A DNA stretch of 37,835 nt, from the NCBI RefSeq assembly GCF_000745835.1, contig NZ_JQKB01000052.1, forward strand, positions 1-37,835. The letters run 5' to 3'. The DNA is from Belnapia moabensis DSM 16746 (GTDB lineage Bacteria; Pseudomonadota; Alphaproteobacteria; Acetobacterales; Acetobacteraceae). Of the stretch, positions 24,303-37,835 are shown one piece after another (the first letter of the stretch is position 1; each line of letters begins with the position of its first letter). The position numbers and the translations under genes were made by a program. The notes under the pieces were generated by a model. The model worked only from the letters and a program-made list of their open reading frames with translations. It did no database searches and was not told the origin of the DNA.

Positions 24303-24379
24303 CGGAGCGTAGCTCAGCCTGGTAGAGCACTGTGTTCGGGACGCAGGGGCCGGAGGTTCGAATCCTCTCGCTCCGACCA
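24303..24379 (+). tRNA. tRNA-Pro (anticodon CGG)
   Basis: A 77-base cloverleaf including an encoded CCA. The acceptor arm CGGAGCG (24303-24309) pairs with CGCTCCG (24369-24375). The D arm is GCTCAGCCTGGTAGAGC, the anticodon stem-loop is CTGTG-TTCGGGA-CGCAG with anticodon CGG, and the T arm is GGAGG-TTCGAAT-CCTCT. It reads proline codon CCG, which is very common in this GC-rich DNA. A strong terminator starts 20 bases downstream. Confidence 0.97.
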
Positions 24380-26460: not shown

Positions 26461-28074
26461 ATGGTCTTCAGTTCCGCCACCTTCATTGTCGGGTTCTTGC
26501 CGCTCGTTCTGCTCGGCTTCCTGGTCTTCGCCGGGACGGGGCAAAGCCGGATGGCGGCGGGCTGGTTGACGCTCGCCTCGCTTGTCTTCTACGGCTGGTG
26601 GAATCCCTGGTGCGTCCCGCTGCTGATGGCCAGCATCCTCGCCAACTACCTGTTGGGCGGCTATCTTCTACACAGGCCGTCGCGGACGGTGCTCGTGCTC
26701 GGCATCATTGGCAATCTGCTGCCGCTGCTTTACTATAAGTATACTACCTTCCTTCTGACCAATATCGACACCGCCTTCGGTCTTGACTGGCAAATCCGCG
26801 AGATCGTCCTGCCGCTCGCCATCTCCTTCTTCACCTTCCAGCAGATCGCCTATCTCAGCGATGCGCATGACGGGGCCGTGGTCGAGCACGACTTCCTTAA
26901 CTATTGCCTGTTCATCACTTTCTTTCCGCATCTGATCGCCGGCCCGATCACCCATCACCGCGAGATGCTGAGCCAGTTCGGCAACCCGGAGAATTTCCGC
27001 CCGCGCTTCGACAACATCTCAATCGGCCTGACCCTGTTCGGCCTTGGCCTCGCCAAGAAGGTCATCCTGGCCGACCCGCTCGGCGCCCTGGCGACTCCTG
27101 CCTTCGCCGCGGCCGCGGGTGGCGAGAGCCTGGCGCTGCTCGATGCCTGGGGCGCCGCGCTGGCCTATGCGCTGCAAATCTATTTCGACTTCTCCGGCTA
27201 TACCGACATGGCGATCGGCCTCGGCCTGCTCTTCGGCATCAGCCTGCCGCCGAATTTCGACAGCCCCTTCAAGGCCCGCAACGTCATCGAGTTCTGGTCG
27301 CGCTGGCACATGACGCTGACGCGCTTCCTGACGACCTATGTCTACAACCCAATCGTGCTGCGCGCGACGCGTGCGCGCACCGCCGCCGGCAAGCCCCTCC
27401 CCCGCCGCGGGAAGATGTCGCCCGGCACCTTCCTCGCCCTGGTCGCCTGGCCGACCGTCCTGACCATGTTCGTCTCCGGCGTCTGGCATGGGGCGGGCTG
27501 GCAGTTCGTCGTCTTCGGCCTGCTGCACGGCTTCTATCTGGTGGTGGCGCATGGCTGGCGCGCCTGGAAAGCGAGCCGGGGCTGGAAGCTCGACGACGAC
27601 CGCCTGCTGCCGCATGCATCCTCCGTGCTGCTGACCTTCCTTTGCGTCGTCGTCGCCCTGGTCTTCTTCCGTGCGGAGGGTGTGCCGGCAGCGCTGAACT
27701 TGCTGGCCGGCATGGTCGGGCTGCACGGCACCGTCGTCCCGGCAAGCTTCGCCCATCTGCCGCTGATCGCCGACATCGTCGCCAGCCATGGGCTCGCGGT
27801 CGGCGCCGGGCGGTTCTTCCAGATCGAGGATTGGGCGAGGATTATCGTACTGCTCGCCTTCGTCTGGTTCATGCCGAACACTCAGCAGTTCATGCTGCAG
27901 TTCCGCACCGCCCTCGGCTGGCGTGGCCGCCCGGCCTGGGTGCAGGCGATCCTGCCGGCGATGACCTGGCGGCCGGCGCCCATCTACGGCGTCGCGCTCG
28001 GCGTGCTCTGCTTCTTCGTGCTAATGCAGACCTTCTCCTCGGCGCCGACCGAATTCCTCTACTTCCAGTTCTGA
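26461..28074 (+). CDS. MBOAT-family membrane O-acyltransferase (AlgI/DltB type)
   Basis: A 537-residue polytopic protein with about ten to eleven helices. Family landmarks include MVFSSATFIVGFLPLVL, YGWWNPW, LLYYKYTTF, LPLAISFFTFQQIAYLSD, the PHLIAGPITHH segment, YFDFSGYTDMAIGLGLLFGI, FNFW-like FWSRWHMTLTRF with His283, and the MBOAT active-site His343 in SGVWHGAGW. AlgI and DltB members pass acyl groups across the membrane to an exported polymer, usually together with an SGNH-type partner such as AlgJ/AlgX or DltD. It starts the all-plus-strand cluster. FkbH begins eight bases after the stop, and an SGNH protein follows, so the usual partner is present. The donor is probably the carrier protein encoded at 29992 (inference). 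Confidence 0.93.
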   Translation: MVFSSATFIVGFLPLVLLGFLVFAGTGQSRMAAGWLTLASLVFYGWWNPWCVPLLMASILANYLLGGYLLHRPSRTVLVLGIIGNLLPLLYYKYTTFLLTNIDTAFGLDWQIREIVLPLAISFFTFQQIAYLSDAHDGAVVEHDFLNYCLFITFFPHLIAGPITHHREMLSQFGNPENFRPRFDNISIGLTLFGLGLAKKVILADPLGALATPAFAAAAGGESLALLDAWGAALAYALQIYFDFSGYTDMAIGLGLLFGISLPPNFDSPFKARNVIEFWSRWHMTLTRFLTTYVYNPIVLRATRARTAAGKPLPRRGKMSPGTFLALVAWPTVLTMFVSGVWHGAGWQFVVFGLLHGFYLVVAHGWRAWKASRGWKLDDDRLLPHASSVLLTFLCVVVALVFFRAEGVPAALNLLAGMVGLHGTVVPASFAHLPLIADIVASHGLAVGAGRFFQIEDWARIIVLLAFVWFMPNTQQFMLQFRTALGWRGRPAWVQAILPAMTWRPAPIYGVALGVLCFFVLMQTFSSAPTEFLYFQF

Positions 28075-28081
28075 GGCCGTC

Positions 28082-30022
28082 ATGGAACAACTCGCCTGGC
28101 TCCCGGTGCATGATGATCTCGGCGCAGCGCTTTCCGCCGCCCGGCGCATCGCCGACCCGGGCGAGCGGCTGGCGCGGGCCATGCACCTCGCCGGCTTCCG
28201 CCGCGACTTCACCGCGACCGGCCGGCTCGACCGCCTGGCGGAGGAGGGCCTCGCCGCGCCGCCCGCCCATCTCGGCCTGGTGCCGCTGCGCCTTGCCATC
28301 CTTGCCTCGCATACCGTCGATCATCTGGTGCCCGGCATCCGCGTCGCCGGGCTGCATCGCGGCCTTGCCCTTGCGGTGCATGTCGCGCCCTATGGCAGCT
28401 ACCGCCAGTCGCTGCTCGGCGAAGATCCCGCGCTCGCCGCCTTTGCGCCGCAGCTGATCCTTCTTGCATTGGATGCGCAGGACTCTCCCATCGACCTGCC
28501 GCTCGACTCTCCGGAAAGCGCGGTGGAGGAAGCCGTTGCCGCCCGGATCGGCGAGTTGCGCCATCTCTGGCGCCGGGCGAAGGAGCGGTTCAACGCGCAG
28601 GTGGTGCAGCAGTTGTTGGTGCCCGCCAGCCCGCCGCTCTTCGGCAGCTACGAGGCGATGGTCCCTGCCGCACCGCACAGCCTGCTCGCCCGCCTGAATG
28701 CCGGTCTTCGCGCCGCCGCGCGCGAGGATGGCGTGCTGCTGCTCGACCTCGCCACGCAGATGGCCGGCCAGGGCCCGGCGGATGGCCTCGCCGACCCGGT
28801 ACGCTGGCACCAGGCGAAGCAGCTCGTCAGCCCGGTGATGGCGCCGCTGCATGGCGACCTCGTCGCCCGCATCGCCGGCGCGGTACTGGGCCGGGCGCGC
28901 AAATGCCTGGTGCTGGACCTCGACAACACCTTGTGGGGCGGCGTCATCGGCGATGACGGCATCGAGGGCATCAAGCTCGGCCAGGGCAATCCAACCGGCG
29001 AGGCCTTCCTCGCCATGCAGCGCTACGCCGCCCAGCTCGGCCGGCGCGGCATCATCCTCGCCGTCTGCAGCAAGAACGACGCCGCGGTCGCCGAGGCGGC
29101 CTTCGTCAACCATCCGGACATGGCGCTGAAGCGCAGCGACATCGCCGCCTTCCTCGCCAATTGGTCCGACAAGGCAGGCAACCTCCGTCAGATCGCGAAG
29201 CAGCTGAACATCGGCCTCGATGCCCTGGTCTTCGTCGATGACAATCCCGCCGAGCGCGACATCATCCGCCGCGAGCTGCCCGATGTCGCCGTGCCGGAAC
29301 TGCCGGAGGACGTTGCGCTCTATCCCACTTGGCTCGGTGCCGCCGGCTATTTCGAGACGGCCGGCTTCACCGCCGACGACGCCACGCGCGGCCGCAGCTA
29401 CGCGGCGAATGCCGAGCGCCAGGCCATGCTGGAGCAGGCGACCGATCTTGAGGGCTATCTCCGCAGCCTCGAGATGGTGCTGACCGCGCGCCCGATCGGC
29501 TCGGCCGAGCTGGCGCGCGCGACGCAGCTCGTCAACAAGACCAACCAGTTCAACCTTACCACCCGCCGCTACACCGAAGCCGAGATGCAGGCCCTGGCCG
29601 AGGCCCCGGACTCGCTGGCGCTGGCGCTCCGCCTCACGGACCGCTTCGGCGATAACGGCCTCATCAGCGTTGTGCTCGCACGCCCGGATGCGGCGCTGCG
29701 CCCGGACGAGTGGCTGATCGATACCTGGCTGATGAGCTGCCGCGTGCTCGGCCGCAAGGTCGAGGAAGCGACCTTGCAGGTGCTGCTGGACCATGCGCAG
29801 CACCAGGGCATCACCGCCCTCATCGGCGAATACCGCCCCACCGCCCGCAACGGCATGGTGGCGGAGCATTATCCGCGCCTCGGCTTCACGCCGATGGCGC
29901 CATTGCCGGATCGCCCCGACGGGACGCTGGTCTGGCGCATCGAGACTCGCGGCTCACGGCCGTTCGCCCACCCTATCGCTTTGGATACCCTATGCACGAA
30001 CAGGAGATCTACGCGGCACTGA
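28082..30022 (+). CDS. FkbH-like HAD-IIIC protein (glyceryl-ACP type)
   Basis: A 646-residue protein. The HAD domain has Asp279 and Asp281 in LDLDNTLWGGVIGDDG, the Ser/Lys region ILAVCSKND and the acidic FVDDNPAER. The C-terminal GNAT-like part contains NKTNQFNLTTRRYTEAEM, RLTDRFGDNGLI and IDTWLMSCRVLGRKVEE, all hallmarks of FkbH-type proteins. The first ~270 residues are an N-terminal region with SGNH-like character. Characterised FkbH proteins dephosphorylate 1,3-bisphosphoglycerate and load the glyceryl group on an acyl carrier protein. The carrier gene overlaps its 3' end by 31 bases, which strongly suggests a pair. It probably makes a glyceryl-type acyl-ACP for the MBOAT protein; the actual acyl group is not known. 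Confidence 0.92.
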   Translation: MEQLAWLPVHDDLGAALSAARRIADPGERLARAMHLAGFRRDFTATGRLDRLAEEGLAAPPAHLGLVPLRLAILASHTVDHLVPGIRVAGLHRGLALAVHVAPYGSYRQSLLGEDPALAAFAPQLILLALDAQDSPIDLPLDSPESAVEEAVAARIGELRHLWRRAKERFNAQVVQQLLVPASPPLFGSYEAMVPAAPHSLLARLNAGLRAAAREDGVLLLDLATQMAGQGPADGLADPVRWHQAKQLVSPVMAPLHGDLVARIAGAVLGRARKCLVLDLDNTLWGGVIGDDGIEGIKLGQGNPTGEAFLAMQRYAAQLGRRGIILAVCSKNDAAVAEAAFVNHPDMALKRSDIAAFLANWSDKAGNLRQIAKQLNIGLDALVFVDDNPAERDIIRRELPDVAVPELPEDVALYPTWLGAAGYFETAGFTADDATRGRSYAANAERQAMLEQATDLEGYLRSLEMVLTARPIGSAELARATQLVNKTNQFNLTTRRYTEAEMQALAEAPDSLALALRLTDRFGDNGLISVVLARPDAALRPDEWLIDTWLMSCRVLGRKVEEATLQVLLDHAQHQGITALIGEYRPTARNGMVAEHYPRLGFTPMAPLPDRPDGTLVWRIETRGSRPFAHPIALDTLCTNRRSTRH

Positions 30023-30240
30023 CGGAAGTCTTCCGCGACGTATTCGACGACGACGACATCACCATCTCCGCCGCGACCACCGCCGAGGACATCCCGGGCT
30101 GGGACAGCCAGGCGCATGTCAACCTCGTGGTCGCGGCCGAGACGCGGTTCGGCATCCGCTTCCGCACTGCCGAGCTCGAGGCGCTGCACAATGTCGGCGA
30201 CTTCGTCCAGCTGATCGGCACCAAGCGGAAAGGCACATGA
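29992..30240 (+). CDS. Acyl carrier protein, module A
   Basis: An 82-residue acidic carrier protein. The phosphopantetheine attachment Ser39 lies in IPGWDSQAHVNLV, the usual D-S-(x)-x motif. Helix 1 (EIYAALTEVFRDVFD) is followed by a poly-acidic turn (DDDD). The ATG at 29992 is inside the 3' end of the FkbH gene (31-base overlap, different frame). The GWDSxxHxxL form is the one commonly found beside FkbH and HAD-IIIC proteins in surface-polysaccharide clusters. The SGNH gene follows after four bases. Confidence 0.92.
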   Translation: MHEQEIYAALTEVFRDVFDDDDITISAATTAEDIPGWDSQAHVNLVVAAETRFGIRFRTAELEALHNVGDFVQLIGTKRKGT

Positions 30241-30244
30241 CGCC

Positions 30245-31300
30245 ATGTCCGGAGCGCCGATCGCCGAAGCTTCACCGAAACCGGTGCAGCCAAGCTACCT
30301 GTTGGCCTTCCTCGGCTCGCTGCTGGGGATGTTCGCCTTGTACTATGGCGTCCTGCTGACGCTCTCGGCGACGGGAAACCTGCCGCCGCCAGCCTTCAGC
30401 AATTCGCTCTGCGTCGACGAGAAGCTGCGCTTCCTGCGGGATGAACAACCCGGCTCGCCGACCTTGCTGGTCGTCGGCTCTTCCGTCGCCTGGCGCCATT
30501 TCGACGGCGACACGCTCTTGCGGAAGGCGCCGGACCTGAAGCCACTGAACGGTGCCTTCTGCGGGCTGCGCGTGAACCAGACCGGCTTTGCGGCCGACTG
30601 GCTGCTCGATCACTACCCAATGGTGCGAGAGGTGGTGATGGTCGCCTCGCCGCAGGATTTCGAGAACTGCACCAGCCATCCGACCGCCTTCCTCGACCGC
30701 GGCGATATCGACGACTACGTCTTCGATCGGGTAACGCCCTGGTTCTACTATACCCGGTACTTCTCCTTCGTCTCGCTGGCACGCAATGCCGCAACCATCG
30801 GCGACAAGCGCTCCGGCGTGAACCGCATCGACCCGCTGGTCTTCGACCGGTTCGGCAGCGGGCCGCTCGGCGCGGAAGGAGGTCGTGGGCAGCTGCTATA
30901 CGGCGCGGTCGACAAGCCGGATCCGGCCTGCCTCTCCGCCTTGTCGCAACTCGCCAGCCGAGTGCATGGCGAGGGCAGGCGACTGATGGTCGCAATGACG
31001 CCGCTGCACCCGCAATGGCGGGCCCAGCACGACCCGGATGGCGCGGTGCTCGGCCGCTTCTCCAGCGGCATCCGCGCCGCCCTCGGTGAAAGCGGTGCCC
31101 GCTATTGGGACAGCAACCTGTCCTTCGCGGCCGACGAGGAGGAATTCTTCGACGCCATCCACCTGCGCTGGACAGGCGTCCCGCGCTTCACCGCGGCGCT
31201 GCTGCAAGCTTTCGACATCCCCGGAGCCGAATCTCCATCCGACTCTCGGGCCCGCATCGTGCTCAATCCGCCTCCTCTGGGTGTGACGGGCAACGACTGA
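30245..31300 (+). CDS. Membrane-anchored SGNH/DltD-like protein
   Basis: A 351-residue protein with one N-terminal membrane helix (about 17-42, YLLAFLGSLLGMFALYYGVLLTL) and a periplasmic domain. The block-I serine is Ser79 or Ser80 in LLVVGSSVAWRHFDG. The C-terminal Asp303-x-x-His306 in DAIHLRWTGVPRF gives the catalytic dyad of SGNH hydrolases. A single-pass SGNH protein next to an MBOAT is the AlgJ/AlgX or DltD arrangement, in which the SGNH enzyme hands the acyl group to the polymer outside the membrane. No other domain is visible. A hairpin follows the stop, separating module A from module B. Confidence 0.8.
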   Translation: MSGAPIAEASPKPVQPSYLLAFLGSLLGMFALYYGVLLTLSATGNLPPPAFSNSLCVDEKLRFLRDEQPGSPTLLVVGSSVAWRHFDGDTLLRKAPDLKPLNGAFCGLRVNQTGFAADWLLDHYPMVREVVMVASPQDFENCTSHPTAFLDRGDIDDYVFDRVTPWFYYTRYFSFVSLARNAATIGDKRSGVNRIDPLVFDRFGSGPLGAEGGRGQLLYGAVDKPDPACLSALSQLASRVHGEGRRLMVAMTPLHPQWRAQHDPDGAVLGRFSSGIRAALGESGARYWDSNLSFAADEEEFFDAIHLRWTGVPRFTAALLQAFDIPGAESPSDSRARIVLNPPPLGVTGND

Positions 31301-31306
31301 TATCAG

Positions 31307-31326
31307 GGCGGCGGCATCACGCCGCC
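31307..31326 (+). terminator. Hairpin after the SGNH gene
   Basis: GGCGGCG (31307-31313) and CGCCGCC (31320-31326) form a perfect 7-bp stem around GCATCA, six bases after the stop. There is no T-tract directly after it. Confidence 0.45.
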
Positions 31327-31433
31327 TCCACCGTCATATTATACGAAGCTCATGACAGTGAGGCGTAATCCCTGTGCGCCGACGGCGGGACGACCTGTCG
31401 CCGGCGCAATCATTGCGGCTCGATAAAGCCATC

Positions 31434-31468
31434 TTGAGTTGATTAGCCCGTATATTTATTCAAATAAA
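31434..31468 (+). promoter_or_regulatory. AT-rich promoter candidate for module B
   Basis: TTGATT (31439-31444) is followed after 17 bases by AAATAA (31462-31467). The latter lies in the perfect inverted repeat TTTATT-CA-AATAAA (31455-31468). This is the most AT-rich spot of the cluster and lies 27 bases before the GTG at 31495, so module B may have its own regulated promoter. Confidence 0.45.
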
Positions 31469-31494
31469 GATTGCTGCTTGTTGGAGATCGCGCC

Positions 31495-31803
31495 GTGCTG
31501 CATGAAACCGTTCGAAATGTCCTGAGAGGCGTCGGTGACCTCGCGGCCTCCGCCGACACGCTCGGCGACAACACCGATCTCTTCGATGCCGGCCTTTCCT
31601 CCTACGGCACGGTGGAGGTGATGATCGGGCTCGAGAACGCCCTCGGCATCGAATTTCCCGAGACGGTGCTGACGCGCGACACCTTCACATCCATCAACGC
31701 CATCGTGCATGTGCTGGAACGCCTGCGCGATGGCACCGTCCCCGCTGGTGGCCAGGCGGTTGACGCCAATGGCTGGCCCGTCGCCACGGAGACCGTGCAG
31801 TGA
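31495..31803 (+). CDS. Carrier protein, module B (amino acid carrier)
   Basis: A 102-residue carrier protein starting at GTG 31495 behind GGAG. The attachment site is Ser36 in LFDAGLSSYGTVEVM. The following MIGLENALGIEFPETVLTRDTFTSINAIVHVL is a standard carrier helix 2-3 region. The C-terminus has about 20 extra residues after the carrier fold. Its stop overlaps the start of the amino acid:[carrier protein] ligase gene (GTGA), which marks it as the probable substrate of that ligase. It differs clearly from the module A carrier (Ser-Ser instead of Asp-Ser before the site), so the two are likely not interchangeable. Confidence 0.92.
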   Translation: MLHETVRNVLRGVGDLAASADTLGDNTDLFDAGLSSYGTVEVMIGLENALGIEFPETVLTRDTFTSINAIVHVLERLRDGTVPAGGQAVDANGWPVATETVQ

Positions 31804-32738
31804 GCGCCACCGAACTTGCTTCTCCCCTCAGCGCCGATGAATTCCGCCAGGAATTGTTCGAGCGCGGCCTGCTCTTCGCAACCGGCGTCGATGGCCTCTA
31901 CGGGCGCAGCGCTACATTCGAGAATCTGGTCGACGCTGTCGATCGCCTCATCGGCCGGATGTCGACGGAAGACGGCGCGGAGATCATGCGCTTCCCGCCG
32001 ATCATGACGCGCACCGGCTTCGAGGCGAGCGGCTATTTCAAGAACATGCCTCAGCTTGTCGGCACTGTTCACTGCTTCTGCGGCGATGACCGCGAGCACA
32101 AGCGCGTGCTCGCCTGCACGCCCGAGGAAGGCGGCTGGACCGCGGCGCAACAGCCCGCCGATGTCGTGCTGACACCGGCATCCTGCTACCCAGTCTATCC
32201 GATCATCGCCGCGCGTGGCCCGCTGCCGGCGGAAGGTTGGCTGGTCGATTCGTCCTCCTACTGCTTCCGCCGCGAGCCCTCGATCGACCCCGCGCGCATG
32301 CAGATGTTCCGTCAGCGCGAGCAGGTGTGCTTCGGCACGCCGGAGCGTATCCGCGCCTTCCAGTCGCATTGGATGACACGAGCCCTGGAGATGTTCCGCC
32401 GCATGGGCCTGCCTGCGACCACGGATCTGGCGAACGATCCCTTCTTCGGCCGCCCCGGCATGCTCATGGCGAATGGTCAGCGCAGCCAGCGCCTCAAATT
32501 CGAAATCCTCGTGCCGATTTCCAACCCCGACAAGCTCAGCGCCTGCGGCAGCTTCAACTATCATGTCCACCACTTCGCCGATGCCTACGGCATCCGTGAC
32601 GCGGATGGTGAGGCGGCACATACCGGCTGCGCTGGCTTCGGCCTGGAGCGTGTCTCCCTTGCACTGTTCCGGCAGCACGGGTTCGATATCGAAGCCTGGC
32701 CGGAATCGGTACGCGCAACGCTCTGGCCTCGGGCCTGA
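31800..32738 (+). CDS. Amino acid:[carrier protein] ligase, seryl-tRNA-synthetase-like
   Basis: A 312-residue class II aaRS core without a tRNA-binding domain. Motif 2 is seen as YCFRREPSIDPARMQMFRQRE (starting near residue 154) and motif 3 as GCAGFGLERVSLALF (about 276-290). Cys129, Glu174 and Cys277 occupy the places of the Cys/Glu/Cys zinc site known from the archaeal-type SerRS and from the bacterial amino acid:carrier ligases, which activate a small amino acid such as glycine or alanine with ATP and place it on the phosphopantetheine of a carrier protein. It starts with GTG overlapping the carrier stop by four bases. Which amino acid is used cannot be read from the sequence. Confidence 0.92.
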   Translation: MSATELASPLSADEFRQELFERGLLFATGVDGLYGRSATFENLVDAVDRLIGRMSTEDGAEIMRFPPIMTRTGFEASGYFKNMPQLVGTVHCFCGDDREHKRVLACTPEEGGWTAAQQPADVVLTPASCYPVYPIIAARGPLPAEGWLVDSSSYCFRREPSIDPARMQMFRQREQVCFGTPERIRAFQSHWMTRALEMFRRMGLPATTDLANDPFFGRPGMLMANGQRSQRLKFEILVPISNPDKLSACGSFNYHVHHFADAYGIRDADGEAAHTGCAGFGLERVSLALFRQHGFDIEAWPESVRATLWPRA

Positions 32739-32761
32739 AGACGAGACGGGGGCAGCCATCG

Positions 32762-34429
32762 ATGATTCCGGTCGCCTTTCAAGGCTGCCGCGGGTGGCTG
32801 CATCCGGCAAACGGATCGGCAGCGCATGGCCTCGTGCTGTGCCCGCCTTTCGGCTATGAGCTGATCTGCACCCAGGCCGGGCTACGCGCCCTGGCCGAGC
32901 GGGTGGCCGCCGCCGGCACGCCGGTTTTGCGCTTCGACTATCCTGGCACCGGCGATTCCGCAGGCGAGGAAGCGCCTGATCGCCTCACCGATTGGCTCGC
33001 CGCCATCGAGGCGGCCGGCGATTGGATGAGCGGGACGCTTGGCCTGAAAGCCATCAGCCTCGGTGGCCTGCGACTCGGCGCGCTCCTCGCTGCGGCCAGT
33101 GCGGCACGCCGCCCAGGCAGCATTCTCGATATCGTCCTTCTCGCGCCCGTCTGGTCGGGCCGCGCTTACGGGCGTGAATTGCTACTCGCCGCGCGTGCCG
33201 CCGGTGAGGCCACGCCAAAGCCGGGCTGGCTCGAAGCCGCCGGCTTCCGCCTGCATGAAAGCGACATCGCTGCATTGCGCGGGCTCGATCTCGCCGCTCT
33301 CTTGCGCCAGGCACGTCCCGCCCGCATCCTGCTCGCCGAGCCGCCCAGACCGGCAGCGGTCGCCCTTCCTGATCTTGGCGCAGCCGTGACCATGCTGCCT
33401 TTCGAAGGGCATGCCGCCTTCTTTCGTCATGCCCAGCTCAGCATCGCGCCCAAGGCGCTCTTCGGCAGCATCGCAACATGGCTGCCCAGGACTGCGACGC
33501 CACTACCCCTTCCGAGCCCACTGACAGACCGCCTTGCTGTCACACCGGGCATGGAGGAACGCGTCCTGCGCTTCGGCGCCGACGAGCAACTGACCGGCAT
33601 ACTCTGCTGCCCGGCACAACCGCAGCCGACCGCCGTGCTGATCCTCAATACCGGCGCCAACCATCATATCGGCAACGGCCGCATTGCCGTGCGCCTGGCA
33701 CGTCGCCTTGCGGAACTCGGCTTCGCCTCGTTGCGCATGGACGCCGACGGCGTCGGCGAAAGCGGCGTCCTCCGCAACGAGCAGCGCGCCGAAGCCTTGT
33801 TCGAGGATGGTCCGACATCGGATGCACTCGCTGGCCTCGATGCATTGGAACGCCAAGGCTTCCGACGCAGCCTGGCGGTCGGCGTCTGTTCCGGCGCGCA
33901 TCACGCCTTCCAGGCCGCGCTGCGGGATACTCGCATCGCCGGCCTCGCCCTTGCCAATCTGCCGGCTTTCGATCGCGCTGCCGGCGGCGCGCCGGATCTC
34001 GACGGCGGACCACCACCTGGCGAGAGCCCCAGATGGCGCAAACCGCGTATGGCGCTGCGCCGGCTCCTTGCCGAAACCGACCGCTTCCTGGCTGAACGGC
34101 TCGGCCTTGAAACCGGCCTGGACCGCGCCGGCCGCTGGCTGCGGCAGTTGCAGGCACGCGGAACGACGCTCTTTCTGGCCTACAGCGACCGCGACCGCTC
34201 GCTGCGCGAGCTGCGCGCGCATTTCGGCCGCGGCGGCCGCCACCTGCCGCAGCACGCTCCGATCCGTACCCTCGTCCTCGGCGGAACTGACCACGCCATC
34301 AATCCACAGGCCATGCAGGACGAGTTCATCGACGCCGTAGAGCGGGATCTGCTCCAGCATCACATGCATGTCCACGCTACCAATGCTCCGCAACTTCTCG
34401 CCCGAACCGCTACTACCCACGCAGCATAA
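32762..34429 (+). CDS. Tandem alpha/beta-hydrolase fusion protein
   Basis: A 555-residue cytoplasmic protein made of two alpha/beta-hydrolase domains. Domain 1 (about 1-245) has the oxyanion region LVLCPPFGYE and RFDYPGTGDSAG. Its nucleophile elbow reads either G102-L-Arg104-L-G106 (no nucleophile) or A-I-Ser99-L-G-G. Domain 2 (about 260-555) has LILNTGANHHIGNGR, MDADGVGESG and the elbow G374-V-Cys376-S-G378, so Cys would be the nucleophile. The end contains GGTDHAIN with the catalytic His. Both halves recall the hydrolases that accompany exosortase/polysaccharide loci. Possible roles are releasing or editing the group on the carrier (thioesterase-like) or transferring it; this is inference. 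It is 23 bases after the ligase gene. Confidence 0.8.
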   Translation: MIPVAFQGCRGWLHPANGSAAHGLVLCPPFGYELICTQAGLRALAERVAAAGTPVLRFDYPGTGDSAGEEAPDRLTDWLAAIEAAGDWMSGTLGLKAISLGGLRLGALLAAASAARRPGSILDIVLLAPVWSGRAYGRELLLAARAAGEATPKPGWLEAAGFRLHESDIAALRGLDLAALLRQARPARILLAEPPRPAAVALPDLGAAVTMLPFEGHAAFFRHAQLSIAPKALFGSIATWLPRTATPLPLPSPLTDRLAVTPGMEERVLRFGADEQLTGILCCPAQPQPTAVLILNTGANHHIGNGRIAVRLARRLAELGFASLRMDADGVGESGVLRNEQRAEALFEDGPTSDALAGLDALERQGFRRSLAVGVCSGAHHAFQAALRDTRIAGLALANLPAFDRAAGGAPDLDGGPPPGESPRWRKPRMALRRLLAETDRFLAERLGLETGLDRAGRWLRQLQARGTTLFLAYSDRDRSLRELRAHFGRGGRHLPQHAPIRTLVLGGTDHAINPQAMQDEFIDAVERDLLQHHMHVHATNAPQLLARTATTHAA

Positions 34430-34453
34430 CAAGAACAGCCCGGGACGCATTCC

Positions 34454-35623
34454 ATGGCCATCCTTCAGTCTGCACTGTCATCCACGAGACCCGTTGCGCA
34501 GGTCGATGCAGTGCGCAGCCTTCCCGCCAGCCTGCCGACGACGATCGAGGTCGCACGCGTGGTCCTCGTCATCGGCCTCGTCTTCCTGCACTACTTCTCC
34601 TTCCCGAACAGCCGCGTGTCGCCCTTCACCGGCTTCGATCCAGACAGCCACTCCTTCGCCACCTTCGTGAACAGCTTCGTGCTGCTGTTCTTCTTCAGCG
34701 CAGTGCCGCTGCTCAGCACCATCTCCGGCTGGCTCTTCTTCGGACTTGCCGACCACCCATTGCAGACCCTCACACGCCGGATGCGCAATCGCATCGGCTC
34801 GCTGCTGCTGCCGCTTCTCACCTGGAACCTTGCCACCATCGCCGTCGGCTTCCTCCTGCACGCTGTCGCCCCGACCACCGGGCTTCTCGGAGAGTTCCGC
34901 TTCGACTTCGACGAGCCCAGCCTCTTCGGCGTAGTCGATGGGGTCCTCGGCCTGACAGGCCTACCCGTCGCCTTCCAATTTTGGTTCGTACGGGACCTTT
35001 TTCTGTCCGTCCTGGTCAGCCCGCTCCTCTGGCTTATCCTGCGTCACGCGCCACTGGCCGGCGTTGCCGTACTCGGCGCCTCCTGGGTGCTGGACTTCAC
35101 CTTCGGCATCTTCATCCGCACCGATGTGCTGTTCTTCTTCTTCCTCGGCGGCTTCGCCCGCATGCGGCAGGTGCCGTTGAACGTCTCCTGGCACACCACG
35201 AAGATTCTGCTGTTGACCTATGCGCTGCTGATGGCGGCGCGGGCCCTGGCGCCGCTCTGGCTCGACCCGACCACACCACCGCACCAGGATGTGCTCGACC
35301 TTGCAACGCGTCTCGCCCGTCCGCTCGGCGTCATCGCCTGCTGGGGCCTCTGCCTGCGCCTGACCACGACGCCACTGGGCGGCTTCTTCGCCCGCTATGG
35401 CGGCTTCGCCTTCTTCCTGCATGCCTCGCATTTCCCCATCATCATCTTCGTGAAGTACCTGCTCTGGCGCCTGGTACCGGCTGAGACGGATGCGTGGATG
35501 CTCGCCCATTACGCCGCCAGCGTCGCCGTCACGGTTTCGATCGCGGCAGCCGGCGCGGCGGTGATCTTCCGCCTCTCGCCTGCGCTCTACGCCTTCCTCG
35601 CCGGCGGCCGGCGTTTCGTCTGA
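34454..35623 (+). CDS. Acyltransferase-3 family membrane protein
   Basis: A 389-residue protein with about ten membrane helices and the PF01757 pattern. The first helix contains VLVIGLVFLHYFSF with the catalytic-type His46. A conserved Trp/Arg region reads FQFWFVRDLFLSVL, and late helices include FFLHASHFPIIIF. Such proteins (OafA/OatA/WecH type) move acyl groups onto sugars of O-antigen, capsule or lipids. It is the second membrane acyltransferase of the cluster and presumably serves module B, while the MBOAT serves module A (inference). It is 24 bases downstream of the hydrolase, and its stop overlaps the GNAT start (TGATG). Confidence 0.85.
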   Translation: MAILQSALSSTRPVAQVDAVRSLPASLPTTIEVARVVLVIGLVFLHYFSFPNSRVSPFTGFDPDSHSFATFVNSFVLLFFFSAVPLLSTISGWLFFGLADHPLQTLTRRMRNRIGSLLLPLLTWNLATIAVGFLLHAVAPTTGLLGEFRFDFDEPSLFGVVDGVLGLTGLPVAFQFWFVRDLFLSVLVSPLLWLILRHAPLAGVAVLGASWVLDFTFGIFIRTDVLFFFFLGGFARMRQVPLNVSWHTTKILLLTYALLMAARALAPLWLDPTTPPHQDVLDLATRLARPLGVIACWGLCLRLTTTPLGGFFARYGGFAFFLHASHFPIIIFVKYLLWRLVPAETDAWMLAHYAASVAVTVSIAAAGAAVIFRLSPALYAFLAGGRRFV

Positions 35624-36327
35624 TGAGCGCGGCAGATCCCCTCGGCGAGCCCGTCGATCCGGCGCCGCGCCCGCGGCCGGAGCACGCCCTCATCACCGGC
35701 AGCAGCGTTACGCTAGAACCCTTGGCCGCTGCGCATGCGGAGGATTTGTGGCCCGCCGCACAGCAAGCCGCTGACAGTTGGCGCTGGCTGCCCTTCGGCC
35801 CGTTCGCAGACCGTGCCGCCTTCGCCGGCACGCTGCGCTTCATGGCGGTCAGCAAGGGCGAACTGGTCTGGGCAGTGCGGCCGCATGGCGCCGATGGCAA
35901 GCCCGGTCCCGCAGCCGGCTGGCTCGCGCTGCTCGACATCCGCCCGGCGGATGCGGCGATCGAACTCGGCAATATCTGGTTCCCACCCGGCCTCGCCCGC
36001 ACCCGGGCGGCGACCGAGGCCATGTTCCTGCTCCTCGATCTCGCCTTCCACCTCGGCTATCGTCGTGTCGCATGGAAGTGCAATATGCTGAACACCGCAT
36101 CCTCCCGGGCGGCGGAGCGGCTCGGCTTCCGCTTCGAGGGCGTGCTGCGCGCCCATATGGTGGTACGCGCCCATCGCCGTGATACGGCCTATTATTCCCT
36201 GCTCGATGCGGAGTGGCCCGAACGCCGCGCCGCGCTGGCTCATTGGCTACGCGATGCCAATTTCGACGCATCAGGACTCGTCCTCGAAAGCCTCCGGCGC
36301 CCGAAGGACCAGCATGCCTTCGCGTGA
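35623..36327 (+). CDS. GNAT-family N-acyltransferase (RimJ/RimL-like)
   Basis: A 234-residue protein. The core runs from about residue 27 (LITGSSVTLEPLAAAHAEDLW) to ERLGFRFEGVLRAHMVVRAHRRDT, which is the RimJ/RimL-type GNAT end with WKCNMLNTASSRAAERLGF. The acyl-CoA loop lies near FPPGLARTRAATEA. It starts at ATG 35623, overlapping the acyltransferase-3 stop, and overlaps the glycosyltransferase start by 14 bases. In this context it could acylate the amino group delivered by the aminoacyl module, or an amino sugar; this is inference from position. Confidence 0.85.
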   Translation: MSAADPLGEPVDPAPRPRPEHALITGSSVTLEPLAAAHAEDLWPAAQQAADSWRWLPFGPFADRAAFAGTLRFMAVSKGELVWAVRPHGADGKPGPAAGWLALLDIRPADAAIELGNIWFPPGLARTRAATEAMFLLLDLAFHLGYRRVAWKCNMLNTASSRAAERLGFRFEGVLRAHMVVRAHRRDTAYYSLLDAEWPERRAALAHWLRDANFDASGLVLESLRRPKDQHAFA

Positions 36328-37405
36328 CGATGCCCTTCCCTTCGACTTAAGGCTGGTCAACTCCGCCCCTGCTCCCGCGCCCGGCGAGGTGATCGGCATC
36401 GTAGTCGCGCGCAATGAGGCGCTTCGCCTCGGCGCCGCAATCCGCCACGCCCGCCATCTCGGCATCGGGTCGATCATCCTGATCGACAATCTCTCGAGCG
36501 ATGCCACGCGCGAGGTCGCCCTTCAGTTTCCGCGCGTTCATGTCGTCGAAGCACCGACCAATTTCGCCGATGCCAATTTCGGCATCGACTGGGTGAATGC
36601 GCTGCTGCACCGCTACGCGCACGGCCACTGGGTGTTGCTCTTCGATGCCGATGAGATGCTGGTCTTCCCCGGCAGCACCAGGCCGGGCGCACTGCCCCAA
36701 CTCTGCGCGCATCTTGACGGAATCGGCTCCGAGGGCCTGCTGACCCTCATGCTCGACTTCTTCCCGCGCGAGCCGCTGCACTCGACCTCGTATCAGCCTG
36801 AACAGGACCTGCTGGAGGCCGCGCCCTGGTTCGAGCCGCCGCAGCTGCGGCAGGAGCACGAGCCGGACTTTCCCCATATCGCAACCTATGGCGGGATTCG
36901 CGAGCGCCTCTTCTTCCCCGAGACAGTCCCGACCCGTCCAGCGCGCCTCCTCCACCAGAAGCTCTACAACCTCGGCTGGCGCCTGCCGCCGTTGCGCCGC
37001 GCCGCCTGGTTCACGCGTTTGGCGCCGCGCCGCTCGCCCAACCTCACCAAGCTACCCCTGCTGCGGTGGCGCGATGGAATGGCATTCCGCTCGGCGCATT
37101 CGGTCGCGCCGCTCGCCCTCGCCGCGGACCAGCCGAGCGGTGCGCTGCTCCACTTCAAATTTCTGCAGGACTTCCACGCCCGGGTGTTGGATGCGGTGGC
37201 GCGCAATGCGCATTACAACGGGTCGTCCGAGTACCGCCGCTACCTCGCGGCCCTGAAGCGCGATCCGGACTTCACCCTCCATGGCCCGCACAGCTTACGT
37301 TATGCCGGGCCTGAGCAGCTCCAGTCGCTCGGCCTGTTGCGCGATACGCCGGCCTGGGCCGCGGCCCGCGCCGAGGCGAAGGTCTTCGCCCCTACGCCGG
37401 GCTGA
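36314..37405 (+). CDS. Family 2-type glycosyltransferase
   Basis: A 363-residue soluble glycosyltransferase with a GT-A fold of the Glyco_tranf_2_4 type: IGIVVARNEALRLGAAIRHA at the start, IILIDNLSSDAT, and the metal-binding Asp111-x-Asp113 in LLFDADEMLVFPG. The C-terminal half carries SGALLHFKFLQDF, common in this branch. The ATG at 36314 follows GAAGGA and lies in the end of the GNAT gene. As the only sugar transferase in the cluster it suggests that the acylated target is a glycan or glycolipid. The other enzymes needed to build a polymer would have to be elsewhere in the genome. It is the last gene before the IS630 element. Confidence 0.9.
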   Translation: MPSRDDALPFDLRLVNSAPAPAPGEVIGIVVARNEALRLGAAIRHARHLGIGSIILIDNLSSDATREVALQFPRVHVVEAPTNFADANFGIDWVNALLHRYAHGHWVLLFDADEMLVFPGSTRPGALPQLCAHLDGIGSEGLLTLMLDFFPREPLHSTSYQPEQDLLEAAPWFEPPQLRQEHEPDFPHIATYGGIRERLFFPETVPTRPARLLHQKLYNLGWRLPPLRRAAWFTRLAPRRSPNLTKLPLLRWRDGMAFRSAHSVAPLALAADQPSGALLHFKFLQDFHARVLDAVARNAHYNGSSEYRRYLAALKRDPDFTLHGPHSLRYAGPEQLQSLGLLRDTPAWAAARAEAKVFAPTPG

Positions 37406-37583: not shown

Positions 37584-37835
37584 ATGCCCATCCCACTCCG
37601 AGCTGACTTTGACGCAGCTGGGCTTCGTGCTGCGGCTCGCCGAACCAAGGATGCGGCCCAGGCCCGTCGCCTGTTGGCCTTGGCTGCCGTTTACGACGGA
37701 GTGTCGCGCACGGAGGCCGCCCGGATCGGCGGGGTGACGGTGCAGATCGTCCGGGACTGGGTGGTGCGGTTCAATGCCGAGGGTCCGGCTGGGCTGATTG
37801 ACCGCAAGGCGCCGGGCCAGGCGTCACGGCTGAAC
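37584..37835 (+). CDS. IS630-family transposase, N-terminal part (cut by window end)
   Basis: The first 84 residues of a transposase, open to the last base. After MPIPLRADFDAAGLR comes an arginine-rich segment and a helix-turn-helix of the IS630 type: RLLALAAVYDGVSRTEAARIGG, then VTVQIVRDWVVRFNAEGPAGL. The start ATG 37584 is preceded by GAGGAG. By its N-terminus it belongs to a different IS630 subgroup than the fragment at 2-322, so the two ends of this window are not an obvious matching pair. Confidence 0.88.
   Translation, partial: MPIPLRADFDAAGLRAAARRTKDAAQARRLLALAAVYDGVSRTEAARIGGVTVQIVRDWVVRFNAEGPAGLIDRKAPGQASRLN

Follow-up and report, generated by a model that had tools for sequence, protein, structure and literature searches.

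Two side-by-side carrier-dependent acyl-transfer modules predicted in a ten-gene run of Belnapia moabensis

We analyzed a ten-gene run in Belnapia moabensis DSM 16746, in a window of 37,835 nucleotides (the whole stretch of DNA under study; contig NZ_JQKB01000052.1 of assembly GCF_000745835.1), and found that it consists of two modules (Table 1). The ten open reading frames (ORFs) lie on one strand at 26461-37405, exactly where an earlier note on this DNA had placed them. Module 1 (26461-31300) encodes an MBOAT, an FkbH-type protein, an acyl carrier protein (ACP1) and an SGNH-like protein, and module 2 (31495-36327) encodes a second carrier (ACP2), an amino acid--[carrier protein] ligase, a tandem alpha/beta-hydrolase, an acyltransferase-3 (AT3) and a GNAT. 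We consider it probable that these are two independent acyl-transfer modules lying side by side, an FkbH-loaded, Dlt-like module 1 and a separate aminoacyl module 2, each acting on a glycan. Gene content, the boundary between the halves, their independent occurrence and the catalytic motifs were read directly from the sequence; the identity of the acyl groups, the direction in which they move, what the hydrolase, GNAT and AT3 do and which glycan accepts the product are inferences. Nine of the ten domain assignments made earlier were confirmed by Pfam or NCBIfam family matches; the product of the 30245 ORF matched no family, and its SGNH label is motif-based. No member of the AMP-binding family (DltA-type) was matched among the ten proteins in these databases.

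The run had been described as one cluster, but it does not look like a single unit. The intergenic spacing within each module is at most 24 bases, with several overlaps, whereas 194 bases (31301-31494) separate the modules. This gap contains a hairpin (z-score, -3.95) and a conserved element, within which the 20-base stretch GATAAAGCCATCTTGAGTTG is identical in all five loci compared, i.e., the window and L002 to L005 (three from Belnapia and one from a Craurococcus metagenome-assembled genome, or MAG). The four closest relatives likewise have a predicted hairpin here, with z-scores of -2.2 to -6.1 (L005 differs in sequence and hairpins, and a longer stretch was folded there), and we infer that it may serve as a terminator. 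Given the gap, the hairpin, the conserved element and the independent occurrence of the halves, a single ten-gene operon was rejected as a prediction from the sequence. A role of the conserved element as a genome-wide regulatory site was not supported: the genome holds just one further match to it, which differs at three bases, and a control search with the reversed pattern likewise yields one. The Roseomonas-type loci L008 to L011 share another stretch, about GACTTGATGCCGAGTTGAATTG, ahead of ACP2, in which one base differs in L010 as judged by eye; in Belnapia this place is taken by the element described above.

The earlier note had itself named ligase-MBOAT co-occurrence as a check on its proposal. 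Ligase loci of up to 21 kb, 80 kept out of 132 confirmed stretches, were searched with the window proteins by tblastn (E, 1e-3). ACP2 matched in 78 of the 80 loci, and the MBOAT, FkbH, ACP1 and SGNH-like proteins in four, the closest relatives L002 to L005, where the full ten-gene order is kept; for this ligase family, an MBOAT in the flanks is thus confined to 4 of 80 loci, and the note's own check speaks against its proposal. AT3 and GNAT matches were obtained in 11 loci (L002 to L012), and L006 to L011 (Paracraurococcus, Roseomonas and Falsiroseomonas, including two MAGs) show the window's gene order ACP2-ligase-hydrolase-AT3-GNAT, their flanks containing no module 1. An MBOAT search over 16 genomes (G036 and 15 that bear a ligase locus) gave no match in six: G036 itself and the five ligase genomes of L006, L031, L045, L013 and L019. 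The L006 genome, of Paracraurococcus, therefore holds module 2 with no MBOAT match; among five ligase genomes of other families in this search, four had none, and in seven other ligase genomes outside Belnapia there was no MBOAT within the fetched ligase flanks. The five ligase genomes with no MBOAT match indicated that the ligase does not need an MBOAT. Genome G036, of the window's genus, has no ligase, SGNH-like or MBOAT match and may be a natural strain lacking the cluster.

Module 1 was also found apart from module 2. Of 200 genomes of the family, 11 gave a match to the SGNH-like protein and 13 to the ligase (two of these weakly, at 31% identity), and the three genomes with both all belong to the window's genus. 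The eight SGNH-bearing genomes with no ligase match contain MBOAT-FkbH-ACP1-SGNH (L112 to L115), SGNH-MBOAT-ACP1 (L116) or an SGNH-MBOAT pair (L119 to L121). Among 385 genomes of the class, FkbH was found in 33 (E, 1e-30), the ligase in 16 (E, 1e-10) and both in four (G000, G338, G381 and G456), and only in the window's genome (G000) do the two share a contig.

Since the modules occur apart and 5 of the 15 ligase genomes have no MBOAT match, the acyl source of the MBOAT is most likely FkbH-loaded ACP1, probably carrying glycerate, and not the ligase. The Dlt-like machine proposed earlier was upheld in part: a carrier-to-MBOAT-to-SGNH machine is probably encoded, but the ligase and ACP2 are not predicted to feed this MBOAT. 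A single machine, with the ligase as DltA substitute, ACP2 as DltC, the MBOAT and SGNH-like protein placing an amino acid on a surface glycan and FkbH as an accessory, would agree with the gene order kept in L002 to L005, with a weak similarity of ACP2 to DltC (NF003464; E, 7e-8) and with the ligase/MBOAT combination of a divergent branch (L177 to L179 and L248). However, module 1 retains an FkbH and an ACP1 of its own and is found where the genome gives no ligase match; module 2, for its part, is found in one genome where no MBOAT is matched. Boundary elements also lie between the halves, and we regard the single machine as very unlikely. It is somewhat doubtful, too, that one exopolysaccharide or O-antigen is the target of both modules, receiving glycerate esters from one and N-acyl-aminoacyl groups from the other, and that the modules are paired in Belnapia for that reason. 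The pairing is stable in five loci and each module has a membrane acyltransferase and its own carrier, yet such pairing was observed in just one small clade, where it may reflect common descent, and no acceptor gene was identified for either module.

Turning to the proteins of module 1, the MBOAT scored 95.7 bits against PF03062 (cut-off, 27) and aligned with DltB 6bug (E, 4e-31), which bears out its earlier description as DltB-like; against the DltB model TIGR04091, its E value was 9.6e-56, but its 189.6 bits fell below the cut-off of 375. The protein ends in FLYFQF (28054-28071), in which Tyr534 is the candidate shuttle, and FxYxxF ends 22 of the 23 MBOATs collected (the exception is L193_11) as well as one further MBOAT, L248_08. 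FkbH scored 306 bits against TIGR01686 (cut-off, 146.65) and aligned with BF1531 (3slr; E, 1e-54). Its gene overlaps that of ACP1, which scored exactly the cut-off of PF00550 (20.8 bits), aligned with the putative acyl carrier protein 2lml (E, 2e-18) and matched no DltC model in the NCBIfam scan. When the best 30 of 38 matched FkbH places in the 385 class genomes were viewed with flanks of about 1.5 kb, an ACP1-like gene was present beside FkbH in 20 (two weak, with E values of 0.006 and 0.008) and an MBOAT in 10, the window being included in both counts. ACP1-like genes stand within the MBOAT cassette in the window, L112 to L116, L187 to L190 and L194, and SGNH-like proteins, recognized by motif and by eye, flank the MBOAT in L187, L188, L189, L190 and L194.

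The 30245 protein is called SGNH-like from its motifs (GSS at 78-80 and DAIH at 303-306), its N-terminal hydrophobic stretch, its position in the MBOAT cassette and a weak profile match of its wider family to DltD and AlgX. G78, S80, P253 and H306 are invariant across an alignment of 15 diverse relatives, and a profile of these 15 sequences against the PDB gave DltD and AlgX chains as its four best matches (E, 0.0068 to 0.23; only the first is below 0.01), with a DltD chain best at 0.0068 and AlgX at 0.049. A PDB profile from five close sequences returned only an unrelated match (E, 1.5). GDSL families matched one member each of the 15 relatives, weakly (best E, 0.0046), and the SGNH-like proteins of L187 and L194 had no Pfam match. 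The host genome contains one MBOAT match and two SGNH-like genes; the second of these, at 9376-10419 of L117 (G000:C10:27001-47000), is 59% identical and has no MBOAT nearby.

As outlined in parts of PMC12148441, the Dlt carrier gives D-Ala to DltB, whence it passes to a DltX tyrosine and on to DltD, and PatA bears the same hexapeptide (acyl-Tyr) at its own C terminus and uses acetyl-CoA. Module 1 is like Dlt in its predicted carrier-bound donor, DltB-like MBOAT, putative SGNH-like acceptor protein and FxYxxF tyrosine motif, but has FkbH beside the carrier and no DltA-type adenylation enzyme, the tyrosine motif is fused to the MBOAT instead of residing in a separate DltX, and the DltB and DltC scores of the window proteins are under the curated cut-offs. 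With PatA/PatB and AlgI/AlgJ/AlgX it shares an MBOAT with a C-terminal hexapeptide and a separate, putative SGNH-like protein in a Gram-negative, and it differs from them in having its own carrier and FkbH; these and other MBOAT-SGNH pairs are said, in the same parts of PMC12148441, to use acyl-CoA without a carrier protein, and carrier-fed envelope acylation is described there for the Gram-positive Dlt. In Campylobacter, fkbH genes lie in flagellar glycan loci, a suggestive link only (PMC7099621, in excerpt). No FkbH-loaded MBOAT-SGNH system was among the matches listed in searches of an open-licence library, subscription journals being outside their scope.

FkbH proteins draw on a glycolytic phosphate to charge ACPs with glyceryl groups, and hence the acyl group of module 1 is most likely glycerate. 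Such loading is known in polyketide pathways, which module 1 resembles in having an FkbH domain beside a dedicated ACP and from which it differs in that no polyketide synthase is among the ten genes and ACP1 is in an MBOAT-SGNH cassette. Given the acyl-tyrosine shuttle motif FLYFQF at the MBOAT end, we reasoned that module 1 would work like Dlt with FkbH replacing DltA. FkbH would load the acyl group, most likely D-glycerate, onto ACP1; the MBOAT would accept it at the cytoplasmic face and move it to its own Tyr534, which would hand it to Ser80 of the SGNH-like protein for esterification of a surface glycan. This reading predicts glycerate esters on Gram-negative surface glycans, and an FkbH-loaded carrier beside a fused-tyrosine MBOAT suggests that the logic of Dlt extends more broadly and has a modular build.

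In module 2, the identity of the ligase as an aminoacyl-tRNA synthetase (aaRS)-like amino acid:[carrier protein] ligase, proposed previously, was borne out by 459 bits against NF005479 (amino acid--[acyl-carrier-protein] ligase; cut-off, 357) and by alignment of residues 23-308 with the solved Bradyrhizobium enzyme 4h2w (E, 2e-91) and with 3mey (E, 2e-89). The 312-residue protein is a catalytic core without the tRNA-binding domain, and archaeal-type seryl-tRNA synthetase matches it only over about residues 121-306. Cys129, Glu174 and Cys277 occupy the zinc positions, are kept in all 56 aligned rows (55 of them different) and are presumably the zinc ligands. For the alignment and tree, 59 of the 80 named loci were left out, and the remaining 21 were joined by the window and by further genome and plasmid relatives. 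In the tree, the ligases of AT3-GNAT loci form one supported clade (11 rows, 100/100). ACP2, whose gene adjoins the ligase gene, scored 87.9 bits against the partner carrier type NF005480 (cut-off, 72), aligned with the carrier in the same entry (4h2w_C) and with Atu2571 (E, 1e-16), and remained below the cut-offs of DltC models (32.3 versus 68 and 28.1 versus 52.35 bits). The ligase and ACP2 are thus clear members of the known amino acid:[carrier protein] systems (Bll0957, with carriers such as Atu2571). Those ligases add Gly, Ala or Ser to the carrier phosphopantetheine according to sections of PMC9437257, which state the biological role of aaRS-like carrier ligases as unknown.

A tandem hydrolase was called in 28 of the 80 ligase loci. 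The first half of the window's protein has Arg104 at the nucleophile elbow (Arg in 26 of 29 sequences), and its second half has GxCxG with Cys376-Asp478-His511, conserved in 29, 27 and 28 of the 29 sequences, respectively. The structure model has a predicted local distance difference test score (pLDDT) of 81, and a fold search gave mainly alpha/beta-hydrolases in the 50 rows shown and nothing specific. The first half is similar to exosortase-A hydrolase 2 (TIGR03101) and the second to exosortase-A hydrolase 1 (TIGR03100), but the two are fused and score far below cut-off (82 versus 202.75 and 79.5 versus 168.45 bits). SyrC, CmaE and polyhydroxyalkanoate (PHA) synthases use a cysteine at such a site in acyl transfer, and by analogy the cysteine at the elbow of the second half suggests acyl transfer. 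In the proposed route, ACP2 would receive from the ligase a small amino acid, Gly or Ala to judge from the family; Cys376 would probably take the aminoacyl group as a thioester and pass it onward, the GNAT would N-acylate or attach it, and AT3 would place the product on an exported glycan. The analysis thereby splits two formerly merged roles, and the ligase gains concrete partners in a cysteine alpha/beta-hydrolase, a GNAT and an AT3.

Neighbours of the ligase family were clustered by heuristic gene calling over the 80 loci (the window itself, L001, left out), with names taken from the Paraburkholderia xenovorans members, and comprised acyl-CoA-dehydrogenase-like (66 loci), DUF1839 (66), GH2-like (65) and sugar transferase (54) families. 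A set of carrier, acyl-CoA-dehydrogenase-like protein, ligase, DUF1839 and GH2-like protein recurs in about 65 of the 80 loci (L013 to L081, mostly Burkholderiales and Roseibium; e.g., L045:8411-14791); annotated Azospirillum plasmids carry carrier, acyl-CoA dehydrogenase, ligase, DUF1839, GH2 and alpha/beta-hydrolase, and a Shinella plasmid the first five. DUF1839 is papain-like, with glycan processing suggested only from gene context in the excerpted text of PMC10318531. It is unlikely, in our judgment, that module 1 performs a true glyceryl modification and module 2 makes a soluble small molecule, an aminoacyl-derived signal or natural product, instead of a glycan substituent. Streptomyces plasmids do carry ligase relatives within natural-product-type clusters, a Priestia plasmid has one near comX, and peptide assembly employs hydrolases, GNATs and ACPs of the kinds present here. 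On the other hand, the AT3 belongs to a family of membrane acyltransferases, module 2 of L006 is directly preceded by a polysaccharide-biosynthesis gene (PF13440) and a GT2 gene, and exopolysaccharide-type Bac_transf, Wzc-like and Wzy_C genes lie near the P. xenovorans ligase. The Priestia megaterium cluster (plasmid NZ_CP085444.1, L214:3006-14635) also includes a holo-ACP synthase, an ATP-grasp enzyme, an alanine permease and an alanine racemase and adjoins the comX quorum-sensing set.

Several observations weigh against two independent glycan-directed modules. The window ligase has hydrolase, AT3 and GNAT neighbours, in contrast to the acyl-CoA-dehydrogenase-like, DUF1839 and GH2-like company in 65-66 of the 80 loci, and the clusters around the Streptomyces and Priestia relatives are of natural-product or other types, so that surface glycans are not a fixed context of this ligase family. 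No MBOAT was seen within about 1.5 kb in 20 of the 30 best FkbH loci, which implies that FkbH-ACP pairs also serve other pathways, and FkbH could supply an acyl group other than glycerate. The 30245 protein lacks a Pfam or NCBIfam match, and its AlphaFold model, from five close sequences, is poor (mean pLDDT, 42.5). The GNAT, AT3 and hydrolase were given their roles by guesswork based on fold and gene order. The boundary hairpin lacks a T-run and is absent from the terminator scan's output, and the modules stand together in all five Belnapia and Craurococcus loci, which could mean cooperation.

The earlier idea of an aaRS-like ligase within a Dlt-like set, which was not supported for the window's ligase family, does seem to hold in a divergent branch. 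The distant ligases have about 380-400 residues and 26-34% identity (those of L177 to L180 score 124-158 bits against the family cut-off of 357), and beside them a carrier and an MBOAT ending in FxYxxF are present in L177 and L178 (both G381), L179 (G568) and L248 (G690), with SGNH-like neighbours called from motifs throughout. L178 and L179 have the common order carrier-ligase-GNAT-MBOAT-SGNH-like, the GNATs being confirmed by Pfam; L177 has SGNH-like-MBOAT-ligase-carrier, its SGNH-like part following a receiver domain; and in L248 genes on both strands encode a carrier, a sub-cut-off DUF1574 protein whose SGNH-like motifs were recognized by eye, the ligase, the MBOAT and a GNAT-like product with no Pfam match. 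In the tree, L177 to L179 group with L180 (94/82; the branches are long and the placement unsure), which has a carrier and no MBOAT in 20 kb. The families to which G381 and G568 belong, with 2 and 18 genomes, respectively, yielded no further ligase-MBOAT pair. Among 398 genomes of the phylum, 44 contain a ligase relative, and an MBOAT was seen at 1 of 27 new loci viewed at about 1.5 kb (L221, the same place as L248) and in 1 of 13 wider stretches; the 12 other divergent loci viewed widely have an ACP-like neighbour in eight and an MBOAT in none, so that MBOAT-linked ligases are a minority even in this branch. In L250, L251 and L253 to L256, long aaRS-like ligases lie beside a carrier and a GNAT-like gene of about 370 residues, of which two tested members had no significant Pfam match.

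We tentatively suggest, as a possibility that we rate slightly below even, that Gram-negatives possess a general class of carrier-fed MBOAT-SGNH machines in which the DltX tyrosine is fused to the MBOAT and the loader is exchangeable, being FkbH for glycerate or, in L177, L178, L179 and L248, a divergent aaRS-like ligase for amino acids, the second case amounting to Dlt-type surface aminoacylation with a tRNA-synthetase relative replacing DltA. Were this so, aaRS-like carrier ligases would acquire a cell-envelope function. The divergent branch is the place where such an aaRS-for-DltA swap is directly testable.

Table 1. Features of the two predicted modules and the adjoining glycosyltransferase gene (positions in the window)
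Feature	Position	Strand	Basis
Module 1 MBOAT, DltB-like membrane acyltransferase, 537 aa	26461..28074	+	Family match, DltB 6bug alignment, C-terminal motif
Module 1 FkbH-type protein, 646 aa, HAD motif DLDNT, candidate glyceryl loader	28082..30022	+	TIGR01686; 3slr
Module 1 carrier ACP1, GWDS phosphopantetheine site	29992..30240	+	PF00550; 2lml
Module 1 single-pass SGNH-like protein, Ser80/Asp303/His306	30245..31300	+	Motifs; weak profile match
Hairpin just 3' of module 1 stop codon, module boundary	31306..31327	+	Folding z-score
Conserved element CGATAAAGCCATCTTGAGTTGAT ahead of module 2	31421..31443	+	Comparison of five loci
Module 2 carrier ACP2, partner type of amino acid:[carrier protein] ligases	31495..31803	+	NF005480; 4h2w_C, Atu2571
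Module 2 amino acid--[carrier protein] ligase, 312 aa	31800..32738	+	NF005479; 4h2w, 3mey
Module 2 tandem alpha/beta-hydrolase	32762..34429	+	PF12146; alignment; structure model
Module 2 AT3 membrane protein	34454..35623	+	PF01757
Module 2 GNAT (Acetyltransf_3)	35623..36327	+	PF13302
GT2-type glycosyltransferase, loosely attached	36317..37405	+	PF13704

The GT2 gene that ends the run lies elsewhere and on the other strand in L006, and tblastn of the ligase loci L007 to L012 gave no GT2 match. Upstream, a tRNA-Pro (cgg) gene is located at 24303-24379, about 2 kb before module 1. Directly after the cluster, an ORF at 37584-37835 runs off the window end, and its product presumably resembles the N-terminal part of an IS630-type transposase.

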